Below are positions 51,763 to 56,373 of a stretch of DNA of 64,000 nucleotides, one piece after another. Within the stretch, counting starts at the first letter, position 1. The number at the start of each line of letters is the position of its first letter. Origin of the DNA: Streptomyces sp. Q6 (GTDB lineage Bacteria > Actinomycetota > Actinomycetes > Streptomycetales > Streptomycetaceae); the NCBI RefSeq assembly GCF_036967205.1, contig NZ_CP146022.1:1426001-1490000 (forward strand), read 5' to 3'. A program made the position numbers and the translations under genes. The notes below the pieces were generated by a model. The model saw only the letters and a list, made by a program, of their open reading frames with translations, did not search any database and was not told the DNA's origin.

Positions 51763-52581
51763 TCAGACGGGGAGCACCGAGCCCTGGTACTTCTCCTCGA
51801 TGAACTTCCTGACCTCGGGTGATGTCAGGAGTTTCGCCAGCTTCCTGACCCGCGGGTCGTCCTCGTCGCCCTTCTTGACGGCGAGGACGTTGTTGTACGG
51901 GTTGTCCTTCACGGACTCCAGAAGGATGGCGTCCTTCTTGGGGCTCAGGCCCGCGTCGAGCGCGAAGTTGTTGTTGACGGCGGCGACGTCGACGTCGTCC
52001 AACGACCGCGGCAGCTGGGCCGCTTCGAGCTCCTTGAAGGTGAGGTGCTTCGGGTTCTTCACGACGTCCTTGGGTGTCGCGTTCACCCCCGCGCCCTTCT
52101 TGAGCTCGATCACGCCCTGGGAGGCGAGGAGTTCGAGCGCCCTCGCCTCGTTGGTCGCGTCGTTGGGCAGCGCGACGGTGGCGCCGTCCCGCAGCTTCGC
52201 GATGTCCTCGACCTTCTTGGAGTAGAAGCCGAGGGGCGGCAGGTAGACCTCCGTGACGGCGGTCAGCGTGGTGCCCTTGGACTTGTTGAAGTCCTTCAGG
52301 TACGGCGCGTGCTGGAAGAGGTTGGCGTCGAGCTCGCCCTGCTGGAGCGCGGTGTTCGGCAGGACGTAGTCCGTGAACTCCTTCACCTCCAGGTCGAGTC
52401 CGGCCTTCTTCGCCAGGTTCTTCTGTACGTACGCGAGGACTTCACCGGCCGGGGTCGGGGTGGCGCCGACGACGAGCTTGTCGCCACCGCCGCCCGCGTC
52501 GGCCTTCTCGGACCCGCAGGCCGTCAGGCCGAGCACGAGGGCTCCGGCGATGACGGCGGCGGGAATCGTGAACGTACGCAT
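51763..52581 (-). CDS. metQ: Methionine-binding lipoprotein MetQ, paralogue 1
   Basis: NlpA-family binding lipoprotein of 272 residues for the MetNI importer. Signal MRTFTIPAAVIAGALVLGLTAC with lipobox LTAC. Family blocks: TPTPAGEVLAYVQKNLAKKA, EFTDYVLPNTALQQGELDAN, LFQHAPYLKDFNKSKG and VALPNDATNEARALELLAS. Its ATG overlaps the stop of the upstream paralogue (TGATG), so the two are translationally coupled. The two chains are clearly homologous throughout but diverge in the ligand-side loops, so ligand preference may differ (L-Met, D-Met or related sulfur compounds). Confidence 0.93.
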   Translation of the reverse strand: MRTFTIPAAVIAGALVLGLTACGSEKADAGGGGDKLVVGATPTPAGEVLAYVQKNLAKKAGLDLEVKEFTDYVLPNTALQQGELDANLFQHAPYLKDFNKSKGTTLTAVTEVYLPPLGFYSKKVEDIAKLRDGATVALPNDATNEARALELLASQGVIELKKGAGVNATPKDVVKNPKHLTFKELEAAQLPRSLDDVDVAAVNNNFALDAGLSPKKDAILLESVKDNPYNNVLAVKKGDEDDPRVRKLAKLLTSPEVRKFIEEKYQGSVLPV

Positions 52582-53411
52582 CAGAACGACGGGAGGACGG
52601 AGCCGGCGTACTTGTCCTCGATGAACTTCTTCACCTGGGGCGACGTCAGGAGCTTCGCGAGCTTCTTCACGCGCGGGTCGCTCTCGTTGCCCGACTTCAC
52701 GGCGAGGACGTTGTTGTACGCGTTGTTCTTCGTGGACTCCAGGGCGAGGGCGTCCTTGGCCGGCTTGAGGTCGGCGCCCAGCGCGTAGTTGCCGTTGATG
52801 ACCGCGCCGTCGACGTCCTCGAGGGAGCGCGGGGTCTGGGCCGCCTCGACCTCCTTGAACGTCAGGTCCTTCGGGTTCTTCGCGATGTCCTGCGGGGTCG
52901 CGGTGGCCTCCGAGCCGGACTTGAGCGTGATGACGTCGTTCGCGGCGAGGAAGCGCAGCGCGCGGCTCTCGTTGTCGGCGTCGTTCGGAAGGGCGATGGT
53001 GCCGCCCTTCTTCAGGTCGGCGAGCTTCGTGACCTTCTTCGAGTAGAGGCCGAGCGGCTCCAGGTGGACGACGGCGACCGACTTGAGGTGCGTGCCCTTC
53101 TTCTTGTTGAAGTCCTCGAGGTAGGGCTGGGTCTGGAAGTAGTTGGCGTCGACGGACCCGTCCTCGGTCGCCGTGTTCGGCGTGACGTAGTCGGTGAACT
53201 CCTTGACCTCGAGGTTGAGGCCTTCCTTCTTCGCCAGGTTCTTCTTGATGTAGTCGAGGATCTCGGCGTGGGGCACGGCGGTCGCGGCGACGACCAGCGT
53301 GTCGGACGCCTTGGCCTTGGTGTCGCCCTTGTCGGAGCCGCAGGCGGTGAGTCCCAGGGTGAGGGCGCCGGTGGCGAGGACAGCTGCGGTGATCTTGGTG
53401 GTGTTACGCAC
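52581..53411 (-). CDS. metQ: Methionine-binding lipoprotein MetQ, paralogue 2
   Basis: Second NlpA-family binding protein, 276 residues. Signal with lipobox in ALTLGLTACGSDKG. Blocks parallel to paralogue 1: TAVPHAEILDYIKKNLAKKE, EFTDYVTPNTATEDGSVDAN, YFQTQPYLEDFNKKKG and IALPNDADNESRALRFLAAN. GTG 53411 opens the frame. It is placed between metI and paralogue 1, 59 bp after metI. Tandem duplication of the receptor for one importer. Confidence 0.93.
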   Translation of the reverse strand: MRNTTKITAAVLATGALTLGLTACGSDKGDTKAKASDTLVVAATAVPHAEILDYIKKNLAKKEGLNLEVKEFTDYVTPNTATEDGSVDANYFQTQPYLEDFNKKKGTHLKSVAVVHLEPLGLYSKKVTKLADLKKGGTIALPNDADNESRALRFLAANDVITLKSGSEATATPQDIAKNPKDLTFKEVEAAQTPRSLEDVDGAVINGNYALGADLKPAKDALALESTKNNAYNNVLAVKSGNESDPRVKKLAKLLTSPQVKKFIEDKYAGSVLPSF

Positions 53412-53470
53412 GAAAAGTGCCTTTCTCCATGGGTGGTGCAACCCGCCGGGTGAGGCGGGGAGTCTGGGGG

Positions 53471-54205
53471 TCAGCGGGTCTTGGCGGGGGCGGCCACGGA
53501 GGGCCGTCCGGCGAAGAGGTTGAAGCGGAACGGTTCGCCGCCCTTGCCGGCGCGGCGGTGCAGGACGCGGGCGCCGCTGTCTCCGGCGAGCTGGATGATC
53601 GCGATGGCGACGGCGAGGATCGCGACGATGATCCACATCAGCTCGGTCTCGAACCGCTGGTAGCCGTAGCGGATCGCGAGGTCGCCGAGGCCGCCCGCGC
53701 CGACCGTGCCGGCCATCGCGGAGTAGCCGATGATCGCGATGATCGTCGTGGTGGTCGCCGAGATCAGCGACGGCAGCGACTCGGGCACGAGGACCTTGCG
53801 GACCACGGTCCAGGTGTTGCCGCCCATCGCCTGCACGGCCTCGATCAGACCGCCGTCGACCTCACGCACGGACGTCTCGACGAGCCGCGCGAAGAACGGG
53901 ATGGCGCCGATGGCGAGCGGCACGATGGCGGCCTCACGGCCGATGGTGGTGCCGACGATCAAGCGCGTGAAGCTCATCAGGGCGACCATGAGGATCAGGA
54001 AGGGCATCGAGCGGACGATGTTCACGATCTGTCCGATGACCTTGTTGGCCACGCTGTTCTGGAGCATCCCGCCGCGGTCGCTGAGGACCAGGAGGATGCC
54101 GAGCGGCAGACCGCCGACGACGGCGATCAGCGTGGACCAGCCGACCATGTAGAGGGTGTCCCAACACGCCTGGGACAGCAGCGGCTCCATCTCCGACCAG
54201 GTCAC
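53471..54205 (-). CDS. metI: Methionine ABC transporter permease MetI
   Basis: Membrane subunit of the methionine importer, 244 residues, five to six helices. Conserved blocks: GLPLGILLVLSDRGGM, IVNIVRSMPFLILMVALMSF, then the coupling region VDGGLIEAVQAMGGNTWTVV and LVPESLPSLISATTTTIIAI. GYSAMAGTVGAGGLGDLAIRYGYQRFET is the MetI hallmark. The GTG start overlaps the metN stop (GTGA). A C-terminal extension of about 25 residues (HRRAGKGGEPFRFNLFAGRP) is longer than in Escherichia coli. Confidence 0.95.
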   Translation of the reverse strand: MTWSEMEPLLSQACWDTLYMVGWSTLIAVVGGLPLGILLVLSDRGGMLQNSVANKVIGQIVNIVRSMPFLILMVALMSFTRLIVGTTIGREAAIVPLAIGAIPFFARLVETSVREVDGGLIEAVQAMGGNTWTVVRKVLVPESLPSLISATTTTIIAIIGYSAMAGTVGAGGLGDLAIRYGYQRFETELMWIIVAILAVAIAIIQLAGDSGARVLHRRAGKGGEPFRFNLFAGRPSVAAPAKTR

Positions 54206-55239
54206 TGGGTGACACCTTCCTTCAGCAGTGCGGGCTCCTGGCCCTGGATCTCGACCTGGAGGCCCTGCTCGCGCAGGAATCCGATCGGGACGACGTTCTC
54301 CTCGTAGCGGCCGGGCAGTTCGATGCGCATGCGGCCGACCTGCTTGCCCGCGACGGTGTCCATCGCGGCGCCGAGGATCGAGATGTCGATGTTGTACGTG
54401 CGCGAGAGCTGCGAGATGACCGGCTGGGTCGTCGACTCACCGTGGAAGGTGACGTCGATGACGGTGCGGTCGGCGCCGGAGGCGTCGCCGCTGACCGGGA
54501 AGAGCGCGGCGGCGAGTTCGGAGCCCGGCGTCGCGAGGAGCTCGCTGACGGTGCCGGACTCCACGATCCGCCCGCGCTCCATGAGGGCGGCGGAGTCGCA
54601 GACGGTCTTGACGACGTCCATCTCGTGCGTGATGAGCAGGACGGTCAGGCCGAGCTGCTGGTTGAGGTCGCGCAGGAGCTGGAGGATCGAGCGGGTGGTC
54701 TCCGGATCGAGGGCGCTGGTGGCCTCGTCGGAGAGCAGTACCTTCGGGTCGCCGGCGAGCGCGCGGGCGATGCCGACGCGCTGCTTCTGGCCGCCGGAGA
54801 GCTGGGCCGGGTAGGACTTCGCCTTGTCGGCGAGGCCGACGAGGTCGAGGAGTTCCAGCGCCTTGGCGGAACGTTCCTTCCCCGACTTGCCGAGGATTTC
54901 GAGCGGCAGCTCGATGTTGTCCTGGACGGTGCGCGAGGACAACAGGTTGAAGTGCTGGAAGACCATGCCGATCCGGCTGCGCGCCTCGCGCAGTTCCTTG
55001 CCGGCGCGCGGTCCGCGCCCGACGAGGGCGGTGAGGTCCTGACCGGCGACGGTCACGGAGCCCGCGGTGGGGCGTTCGAGCAGGTTGACGCAGCGGATCA
55101 GCGAGGACTTGCCGGCGCCGGACTGGCCGATGACGCCGTACACCTCGCCTTCGCGCACGTGCAGATCGACGCCGTCGAGGGCGGTGACCTCGCGGCCGCG
55201 CGAGCGGTAGACCTTGGTGAGGCCCTGAGTGGTGATCAC
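54202..55239 (-). CDS. metN: Methionine ABC transporter ATPase MetN
   Basis: ATPase of the importer, about 345 residues. Walker A GQSGAGKSSLIR, Q-loop MVFQHFNLLSSRTV, signature LSGGQKQRVGIARALA, Walker B VLLSDEATSALD, switch His in LITHEMDVVKTVC. The C-terminal NIL regulatory domain starts near residue 265 (VIDVTFHGESTTQPVISQLS); this domain binds methionine and inhibits transport in the known family. GTG 55239 (MITTQGLTKVY) gives the usual N-terminus with GGAA upstream; GTG 55254 would add five residues. First gene of metN-metI-metQ2-metQ1. Confidence 0.95.
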   Translation of the reverse strand: MITTQGLTKVYRSRGREVTALDGVDLHVREGEVYGVIGQSGAGKSSLIRCVNLLERPTAGSVTVAGQDLTALVGRGPRAGKELREARSRIGMVFQHFNLLSSRTVQDNIELPLEILGKSGKERSAKALELLDLVGLADKAKSYPAQLSGGQKQRVGIARALAGDPKVLLSDEATSALDPETTRSILQLLRDLNQQLGLTVLLITHEMDVVKTVCDSAALMERGRIVESGTVSELLATPGSELAAALFPVSGDASGADRTVIDVTFHGESTTQPVISQLSRTYNIDISILGAAMDTVAGKQVGRMRIELPGRYEENVVPIGFLREQGLQVEIQGQEPALLKEGVTQ

Positions 55240-55479
55240 TGGGGTTTCCGTCACTGTCGAGTGCCGGGCACGGGTGGCGCCGGGCACGGGGCAAACATTT
55301 CGGGAACTTGGGGGAGTTTCCGGGCGCGCGCCAGGCTCTCGCGGCCGACGGTGGTCGGCACAGGAGTCAGTACTGGAATGGAGGATCAGTACGGAGAAGC
55401 TGTGCGCGGGGCAGACCCGGTCACGTAGTCGAGCTGTTTCTCCCTGCGGAGTCACTCCCTACGGAACAGGGCGCGCGGG

Positions 55480-55499
55480 TCTCGCTTCGGGGCGCGAGA
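55480..55499. promoter_or_regulatory. Hairpin in the metN leader after the Cys/Met-rich frame
   Basis: TCTCGC/GCGAGA stem with an 8-base loop, 20 bases after the leader stop. Weaker inverted pairs follow (GTACTG...CAGTAC near 55365-55390). The 280-base leader to metN is therefore able to fold; no SAM-riboswitch core was recognised. Confidence 0.35.
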
Positions 55500-55518
55500 A
55501 CAGGCGTGGTGGGGGCCC

Positions 55519-55605
55519 TCAGAAGGCGCACATTCGACACATACAACGAGCACCGGGCGTCATCGTCGCCTCGGTCGCAAGGGTGCGGCTGCTCGTCGTG
55601 GTCAT
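55519..55605 (-). CDS. Candidate leader peptide with Cys-Met-Cys-Arg-Met-Cys end
   Basis: A 28-codon frame, M-TTTSSRTLATEATMTPGAR then CMCRMCAF, ending in TGA 279 bases upstream of metN. A -10-like TTTACT (55613-55618, minus) lies 7 bases upstream of the ATG, so the message would be leaderless. Three of the last eight codons are Cys and two are Met; both residues are rare in this proteome. Short leaderless cysteine-rich frames act as cysteine-responsive attenuators upstream of sulfur genes in mycobacteria. Here the frame precedes a methionine importer and could sense charging of tRNA-Cys, tRNA-Met or both. Translation is not shown. Confidence 0.6.
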   Translation of the reverse strand: MTTTSSRTLATEATMTPGARCMCRMCAF

Positions 55606-55612
55606 GCGGGAA

Positions 55613-55618
55613 AGTAAA
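55613..55618 (-). promoter_or_regulatory. -10-like element TTTACT of the met leader transcript
   Basis: TTTACT followed by 7 bases and ATG. The -35 region (GTGGTC at 17 bp spacing) is weak. Confidence 0.4.
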
Positions 55619-55645
55619 GCAGACGTGAGGACGTGGACCACCCTC

Positions 55646-55666
55646 CCTGTCCGAATAGCGGACAGG
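55646..55666. terminator. Hairpin between the HAD remnant and the met leader
   Basis: Perfect 8-bp stem CCTGTCCG/CGGACAGG with a 5-base loop, 23 bases past the HAD-remnant stop. It insulates the met leader from upstream transcription, or could be an operator since it lies near the leader's -35 region. Confidence 0.6.
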
Positions 55667-55688
55667 CGTGGGCGTCCGGCGCGGCACG

Positions 55689-55949
55689 TCAGGGGGTGGC
55701 GGTGAACTCCACGCCGACCTCCGTGGCCAGTGCGGACACGGCCGACAGGTCCTTCACCACGACGCCCGCGGAGAGCTCGCGGGCCTCGCGCGTTGTGGCC
55801 AAGGCCACGATCGTCATGCCTCCGGCGCGGCTCGCGGCGCGTCCTCGGCGACGACGCGGCGGGCGGGATCCACGCCGAGCTTCTCGGCGGCGGGGCGGCC
55901 GTGCGGCTCGACCTTTCGCGAACGCCTCGGCGGTGATCCCGTACTCCTG
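55689..55949 (-). pseudogene. Decayed HAD-family phosphatase (3' remnant)
   Basis: Conserved HAD pieces can be read only by switching frames: YGITAEAFAKG (about 55918-55949), then in another frame PHGRPAAEKLGVDPARRVVAEDAP, then back to MTIVALATTREARELSAGVV and VKDLSAVSALATEVGVEF to the stop at 55689. The order matches motif III-IV of sugar-phosphatase HAD proteins (GKP-PEP, LGVDP, VEDAPAG, VKDLSAV). The 5' two thirds are missing; the next gene begins 64 bp away. At least two frameshifts are needed, so sequencing error alone is unlikely. Confidence 0.65.
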
Positions 55950-56000
55950 CACGGAGGGGGTCCGCCCGGGGGCGAGCGCATCGGGCCTTTTGGCCCGTAA

Positions 56001-56013
56001 TAGGCTCACGGCC
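56001..56013 (+). promoter_or_regulatory. -10 element of a leaderless transcript (56014 gene)
   Basis: TAGGCT (56001-56006), then CACGGCC and ATG. The transcript should begin at the start codon. Confidence 0.45.
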
Positions 56014-56373
56014 ATGCTTGATGCCCTGACCCTGGTGACGGGTCTCGCCGCGCTCGCGCTCGCCGCGTGGTGCGGCTTCGCCGCCTCCCGTGACCAGCCG
56101 ACCAAGGACTGGCACTTCATCGGCATGGCCGTGGTATCCGTACTCGCGCTCGCGCAGCTCGTGGTCGGGATCGTGCAGCTCGCGCGGGGCGAGAAGCCGG
56201 AGCAGGGCACGACGATCTTCGTCGCGTATCTGATCGGGGCGTTCGCGTGCGTCCCGGCGGCGGGGTTCATGTCGCTGGCCGAGCGCACCCGCTGGGGTTC
56301 GGTGACGGTCGCCGCGGGCGGAATCGTCCTGGCCGTTCTCGAAGTGCGGCTCTACGACATCTGGGGAGGATGA
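56014..56373 (+). CDS. Small integral membrane protein, four helices
   Basis: The 119-residue hydrophobic protein is not assigned to a family. Four membrane segments: LDALTLVTGLAALALAAWCGFA, FIGMAVVSVLALAQLVVGIVQL, FVAYLIGAFACVPAAGFMSL and VTVAAGGIVLAVLEVRLYDI, with short charged loops (SRDQPTKDWH, RGEKPEQGTT). ATG 56014 has no ribosome site and follows a -10 by 7 bases, so leaderless expression is likely. It is separated by one base from the next membrane gene and probably works with it. Confidence 0.82.
   Translation: MLDALTLVTGLAALALAAWCGFAASRDQPTKDWHFIGMAVVSVLALAQLVVGIVQLARGEKPEQGTTIFVAYLIGAFACVPAAGFMSLAERTRWGSVTVAAGGIVLAVLEVRLYDIWGG

Follow-up and report, generated by a model that had tools for sequence, protein, structure and literature searches.

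The window (the whole 64,000-nucleotide stretch of Streptomyces sp. Q6 DNA that was analyzed) carries on its minus strand the methionine importer operon metNIQ, ahead of which lies a leader with a short open reading frame. The features of the locus are listed here from the upstream end.

55648..55664, no strand assigned: palindrome TGTCCGCTATTCGGACA, candidate operator, beginning 59 bases ahead of the ATG
55613..55621, minus: extended -10 TGCTTTACT, 7 bases ahead of the ATG (leaderless spacing)
55519..55605, minus: leader frame of 28 codons, MTTTSSRTLATEATMTPGARCMCRMCAF and stop (sequence and translation; orthologue of S. lividans metL)
55591..55599, minus: predicted P1 5′ strand ACGACGAGC, codons 3-5 (fold, pair counts)
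55576..55587, minus: predicted P2 hairpin CGCA-CCCT-TGCG (fold, stem counts)
55552..55575, minus: predicted P3 hairpin ACCG(A)GGCG-ACGATGA-CGCCCGGT (fold, pair counts)
55543..55551, minus: predicted P1 3′ strand GCTCGTTGT, codons 19-21 including the first Cys codon (fold, pair counts)
55522..55545, minus: putative sensor codons 21-28, Cys-Met-Cys-Arg(CGA)-Met-Cys-Ala-Phe (sequence, codon-by-codon counts)
55481..55498, minus: hairpin H, CTCGCG-CCCCGAA-GCGAG, five pairs, 3′ of the stop codon
55402..55414, minus: mid-leader block CTGCCCCGCGCAC, possible helix A partner (minimum-energy fold, association)
55261..55287, minus: hairpin T, just 5′ of the metN ribosome site (covarying pairs)
55237..55260, minus: metN initiation region TCGACAGTGACGGAAACCCCAGTG with conserved TCGACA, GACGGAA and the start GTG 55239-55237 (alignment)
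54202..55239, minus: metN, methionine importer ATP-binding subunit (TIGR02314, NIL domain in Pfam)
53471..54205, minus: metI, permease (ORF start mechanical)
52581..53636, minus: metQ-like substrate-binding lipoprotein, first copy (ORF start mechanical)
51763..52581, minus: metQ-like lipoprotein, second copy (ORF start mechanical)

The leader frame runs from an ATG at 55605-55603 to a TGA at 55521-55519. A preliminary description of this DNA had proposed a 28-codon frame ending Cys-Met-Cys-Arg-Met-Cys-Ala-Phe-stop, a -10 element at leaderless spacing, a short hairpin past the stop, a leader of about 280 bases ahead of metN and the absence of a SAM riboswitch, and each of these is borne out. 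The frame and its end are as described in both sequence and translation, TTTACT lies at 55618-55613 with the TG of the extended -10 at 55621-55620, the pairing halves CTCGCG and GCGAG of hairpin H follow the stop, and 279 bases separate the stop from the metN GTG at 55239. An Rfam search of 50-60 kb with matches accepted up to E 5 gave two weak matches, neither of them within the leader and neither a SAM riboswitch.

MetN matches TIGR02314 with E 5e-112, which is below that model's curated cut-off. An alternative metN start, GTG 55254 (55252-55254), was rejected in favor of 55239 because, in 52 of the 122 relatives in which both can be placed, it does not share the reading frame of the conserved GTGATCAC start; GACGGAA lies directly 5′ of the chosen start. 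We also note that the two metQ-like lipoprotein genes are adjacent within one operon (window 51763-53636) and that a 199-codon open frame without a Pfam match lies just 5′ of the leader (window 55689-56288, minus).

This leader frame has a published counterpart. S. lividans TK24 metL (SLIV_29928), MSTTSDRTPATEATTTPGARCMCRRMCAF and stop, located ahead of metNIQ, is listed as an attenuator in Table 4 of PMC8079986, the metL portion of which gives it a leaderless start by RNA-seq, describes termination as unclear with no Rho-independent terminator, and presumes methionine to be the signal. The locus and peptide are the same here, with 24 of 28 aligned residues identical and one gap, and no Rho-independent terminator was seen in either (PMC8079986). 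The preliminary interpretation of the region as a leader is partly supported: a leaderless-type, conserved Cys-Met-rich frame does stand ahead of metNIQ, one that had already been published as metL. The transcript start is mapped by RNA-seq for the S. lividans orthologue and is predicted in the present strain from promoter spacing. In its treatment of metL, PMC8079986 stresses the methionines and threonines, and that part of the paper does not take up the Cys codons, the conservation, or the in-frame junction and palindrome described below. Our literature search recognized no further paper on the metNIQ leader, and no mention of metN or the leader peptide was found in the accessible parts of PMC4681348, PMC4895711 and PMC8914203.

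Comparison with other genomes is informative in understanding the frame. A tail pattern with at most 3 mismatches in 27 is present in 272 of 392 Streptomyces genomes, vs. 2 of 392 for a reversed control, and in 90 of 90 extracted loci where the pattern was found metN follows in the same orientation, at most about 450 bases downstream. (One genome, G002, has two matches; the other tabulated genomes have one each.) The preliminary description had named conservation of the tail upstream of metN in other Streptomyces as a point to check, and in a class-wide draw with a MetN cut-off of E 1e-80 or better the frame precedes metN in all 15 other Streptomyces with MetN. Thirty genomes without the strict pattern include 28 with MetN at 77% identity or higher, and the leader is present in 26 of the 28; the remaining two loci lie at contig ends, where 152 and 2 bases of upstream sequence are available. 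The leader also extends to sister genera, where MetN occurs in 19 of 24 genomes (13 of 16 genera) and every one of the 19 metN loci has a leader, with a frame that starts 6-7 bases past TTTACT or TTTAAT and whose Cys-Met tail reads, e.g., RRMCRMCEL, RTCRMCRVCRMCDC or CRCMCRMCRMRGC. A pattern search of 249 family genomes gave a Kitasatospora-type leader in 13. Outside the family, the class draw contains 18 genomes with MetN, and the leader is absent at the 14 loci examined (L217-L230).

Two observations outside this distribution may be mentioned. At L223 (G514), a genome outside the family, a Cys-Met-rich frame ending SCCRMRMGRMPAR precedes metN by about 266 bases; it lacks the promoter motif and is perhaps an independent leader. 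A 7.3 kb Actinomadura contig (L047:945-1114) contains a frame related to this one, after which comes the hairpin CTCGCGCCCCGAAGCGAG seen in Streptomyces.

Short frames are common in this DNA (71 ORFs of at least 20 aa in 52-60 kb), so that a chance frame without function might be considered, but the conservation of the frame together with its promoter across genus and family refutes this and reduces it to a negligible probability. The frame is open in every relative that could be checked and length changes stay in frame; with the synonymous excess at Cys codons given below, these bear out conservation beyond DNA drift, another point that had been raised at the outset.

The most constant part of the frame is its tail. 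Cys is present in the tails of all 128 distinct peptides (range 1-6, mean 2.9) and Met in 127 (mean 1.9), in a count that excludes the frames of L205-L216 and draws on Streptomyces frames mostly collected with CGA-ATG required and on later class-draw and sister-genus sets collected with Cys required. The lone Met-less tail is that of L191 (the leader of G045), CRCCTCAR; with its four Cys and not a single Met, it shows that Met is not an absolute requirement. L191, which was read by eye, is the sole locus that escaped the first filter and also the sole escapee with enough upstream sequence. Because every tail contains Cys, it is the better supported signal, with Met as a possible second one. 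Codons 21, 23 and 26, all Cys, show 30 synonymous and 24 non-synonymous single-base changes, where a fraction of 0.11 synonymous is expected by chance; this coding signal is weaker if only transitions occur, because the chance fraction is then about 1/3. Among the 87 frames of 28 codons, Met25 is retained in 86 and Met22 in 65 (replaced by Leu, Thr or Arg), and the stop codon is TGA in 52 and TAG in 35. In the tails of L024, L032, L034, L172, L177 and L180 the Met-Cys-Arg unit is expanded in frame, and resembles a growing codon repeat.

One feature of the tail, the CGA at codon 24, which is fixed in 86 of 87 frames with zero synonymous change, finds no explanation in amino-acid sensing. Such fixation of CGA-ATG, and the recurrence of the RMC end across sister genera, would suit an arrest peptide, in which the nascent ..R-M-C near the stop and the rare CGA would stall the ribosome on a metabolite (methionine or S-adenosylmethionine) and not on empty tRNAs. 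Arrest peptides usually depend on a conserved chain in the exit tunnel. Here the upstream residues instead track RNA structure, and loop codons 6, 8, 9, 14 and 15 have 165 non-synonymous and 6 synonymous single-base changes; therefore the N-terminal peptide is not selected. Sister genera, moreover, have little upstream sequence in common, and the CGA-ATG fixation is overstated, being the selection filter for most of the frames, while the one tail recovered without that filter (L191) departs from it. We thus consider an arrest peptide unlikely.

The conserved sequence upstream of the tail is better accounted for by RNA structure. The minimum-energy fold of the window leader has a z of -3.2, with 0 of 100 shuffles as low, and includes three helices, P1, P2 and P3, by which codons 3-21 are predicted to form a three-way junction. 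This is supported by near-invariant stems, variable loops and covarying pairs. In P1, ACGACGAGC (codons 3-5) pairs with GCUCGUUGU (codons 19-21), so that the strand closing the junction contains the first Cys codon in most Streptomyces. Across 93 distinct Streptomyces sequences, column identity is 97.7% at paired and 77.9% at other positions, even the third codon positions of the stems reach 96.3%, and the variable codons 6, 8, 9, 14 and 15 all fall outside the stems. When sister genera are included (101 distinct rows), 95.9% of pairs are standard. Doubly changed paired cells number 20, a value that none of 500 shuffles reaches (2.7, sd 1.4), 5 pairs show double change vs. 2.0 in shuffles (2 of 500 as high), and P1 pairs at 93.5% in register and at 22-64% when slid by 1-3 bases. 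The set with sister genera uses 138 of 162 frames, 24 without a CCCGG anchor (mainly Kitasatospora-type) having been dropped; in both sets one codon was removed from a few frames to hold register, and these statistics, like all others given here, ignore kinship among genomes. The clearest covariation turns AGC/GCT into AAC/GTT in several sister genera; L116 has the G-U intermediate. Comparison with synonymous recodings is less striking, with a mean z of only -1.05 over 133 frames, and three sister-genus frames (L274, L277 and L278) are less stable than their own recoded versions. Kitasatospora-type leaders have different predicted folds, in which the Thr-rich start often again pairs with the Cys-Met end; the closing strand may contain putative sensor codons in both types of leader. 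With regard to the frame, then, conservation beyond DNA drift holds, and much of what is conserved in codons 3-21 is RNA structure and not peptide.

Such nucleotide-level conservation of codons 3-21, with a covarying three-way junction, would also be seen if the RNA fold itself did the regulating, as a riboswitch or a protein-bound element with which the transcript begins, and the frame were incidental. We think this improbable as well, since the variable parts are the loops and the junction segment at codon 6, unlike an aptamer core, and no Rfam family was matched in the leader. An incidental frame also does not fit with a frame that is open in all relatives checked, changes length in frame and ends in either TGA or TAG, or with a Cys-Met tail that is kept in sister genera although the fold differs.

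The promoter is conserved as well, with TGnTTnAnT 6 or 7 bases from the ATG in 133 of 134 leaders. The string TTTACTN{6,7}ATG occurs 3 times in this genome (4 in the reversed control), and as candidates for sibling leaders its other two matches were set aside, since they start 139- and 31-codon frames and are taken as chance. Farther upstream, a palindrome TGTCC(G/A)nnATnCGGACA with at least 10 of 12 half-site letters occurs in 125 of 134 leaders (in 120 at -57 to -60) and may bind a regulator about 58 bases upstream of the frame. This near-constant distance would be expected if metNIQ were controlled chiefly by a dimeric regulator at that site, with a minor role for the leader frame; that view leaves the conserved frame, junction and downstream hairpins unexplained, and we judge it improbable as the main control, though it can coexist with attenuation. 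A genome scan allowing up to 2 mismatches gave 69 palindrome sites vs. 32 for a reversed control, and TGTCCGCTATTCGGACA is the sole zero-mismatch site. Nine one-mismatch loci were inspected roughly; several are near gene ends, and three ORFs near such sites comprise one with arginyl-tRNA synthetase domains, one isocitrate/isopropylmalate dehydrogenase and one with no match. No sulfur regulon was thus seen at the best other sites of this genome, of which few were inspected, and this too speaks against promoter control.

Between the frame and metN, hairpins H and T are both conserved. Hairpin H is matched by regular expression in 121 of 127 leaders, and 3 of 122 rows replace a U-A pair by C-G. 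In hairpin T, A-U takes the place of G-C at one pair in 8 rows and at another in 4, with two other pairs unpaired in 44 and 48 of 120 rows. A longer-range helix A, between GTGCGC at the frame end (55526-55531) and GCGCAC in mid-leader, seems to be conserved less surely than these. Frames with GTGTGAC carry GCGTCAC in 19 of 22 leaders vs. 1 of 105 others, kinship again being ignored, but many leaders with RMRAF lack the usual partner, which is GCGCAC in 5 of 20 and GCGCAT in 4 of 20. Helix B, which pairs TGT-CGA in the frame with TCGACA before metN in the minimum-energy fold, was rejected: both of its sides are conserved, and among 127 leaders the pairing is unchanged in 98, unparsed in 4 and short of a pair in all 25 parsed variants, without compensation in any of them. 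Duplex energies for helix A (cognate -25.62 vs. permuted -25.21; 7 of 2000) and helix B (-23.09 vs. -22.79; 9 of 2000) are about equally favorable and do not separate the two, and shared ancestry can explain both. Of the structures between which a ribosome might switch the leader, then, P1-P3, H and T are supported, helix A partly so, and helix B is not.

Two possible outputs of the leader were considered. When the footprint of a stalled ribosome is held unpaired in the leader fold, the metN ribosome site is unpaired at 0.459 vs. 0.461 with the ribosome on the first Cys codon, at 0.486 with it on the last Met-Cys (78 of 124 up) and at 0.464 with it on the stop codon; access is barely altered, and sequestration of the ribosome site is unsupported by this model. 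No terminator-like site was found in 55150-55750. The leader is rich in C (46.2%, G 28.7%), its C minus G being 0.175 vs. 0.070 at the start of metN, and such a composition would be compatible with Rho.

Taken together, the leaderless-type promoter, the open frame, the Cys/Met run, P1-P3 and hairpins H and T suggest that the metNIQ leader is a ribosome-mediated attenuator that reads the charging of tRNA-Cys, and possibly of tRNA-Met, a reading to which we give a probability of roughly 60%. Comparative evidence stands behind the frame, its sensing codons and the folds; what we infer is the signal, direction and output of the attenuator. A 70S ribosome would start on the 5′-terminal AUG and, as it moves along, open P1-P3. 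When sulfur amino acids are short it would stall on codons 21-26, leaving the P1 5′ strand free and covering the frame end; the stall would prevent helix A and perhaps also keep Rho from loading on the C-rich leader, and metNIQ would be expressed. With ample Cys and Met the ribosome would depart, the leader would fold and metNIQ would be turned down. Candidate outputs are metN translation or Rho-dependent termination. More tentatively, and in our estimate distinctly less probably, a single leader frame may read two sulfur amino acids at once, with a Cys-Met-(Cys)-Arg-Met-Cys sensor that overlaps the three-way junction, so that ribosome position sets the fold, across Streptomycetaceae and with 9-base Met-Cys-Arg expansions.

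Cys-rich leaders are reportedly known from elsewhere in the class, in the polycysteine leaderless short ORFs of mycobacteria of Canestrari et al. 2020. Such ORFs are described as acting by translation attenuation upstream of sulfur genes (relevant parts of PMC13236596, PMC9094748 and PMC4633059), and have in common with the present frame that they are short, of leaderless type, with Cys codons near the stop and sulfur genes downstream. They differ, as far as those accounts extend, in that theirs is a Cys-only cluster ahead of cys-type genes, whereas the present frame interleaves Cys with Met and Arg, contains a conserved junction and precedes an operon for methionine import. The window frame has no consecutive terminal Cys run, and CC pairs are found in some relatives, e.g., L250, L259 and L191. 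Cys leader peptides have also been predicted in Mycobacterium, Propionibacterium and Bifidobacterium, and like these the present leader has a Cys run and no visible terminator; the same work, in the portion consulted, reports no conserved RNA regulatory structures ahead of methionine operons in Actinobacteria (PMC1262725). With the classical trp- and ilv-type attenuators of Actinobacteria, as described in parts of PMC1262725 and PMC13236596, the leader shares a peptide rich in the relevant amino acids; unlike them it is without a terminator hairpin and U run.

What was already known is the metL orthologue of S. lividans, and what is unusual here is the in-frame junction and the mixed Cys-Met tail; comparison of sequences adds the predicted junction in codons 3-21, the tail Cys in all 128 distinct peptides, the conserved hairpins H and T, less surely helix A, and the putative operator palindrome. 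Through metNIQ an antibiotic-producing genus imports methionine, and the control of this operon is little described in the literature examined. A one-line table entry, metL, thus becomes a family-wide element with a distinction between Cys and Met codons, an in-frame junction, two downstream hairpins and a candidate operator. Codons that appear to double as sensor and RNA stem make the leader a clean case for leaderless translation controlling an operon without an intrinsic terminator, and it offers a test of whether one leader can read two amino acids.
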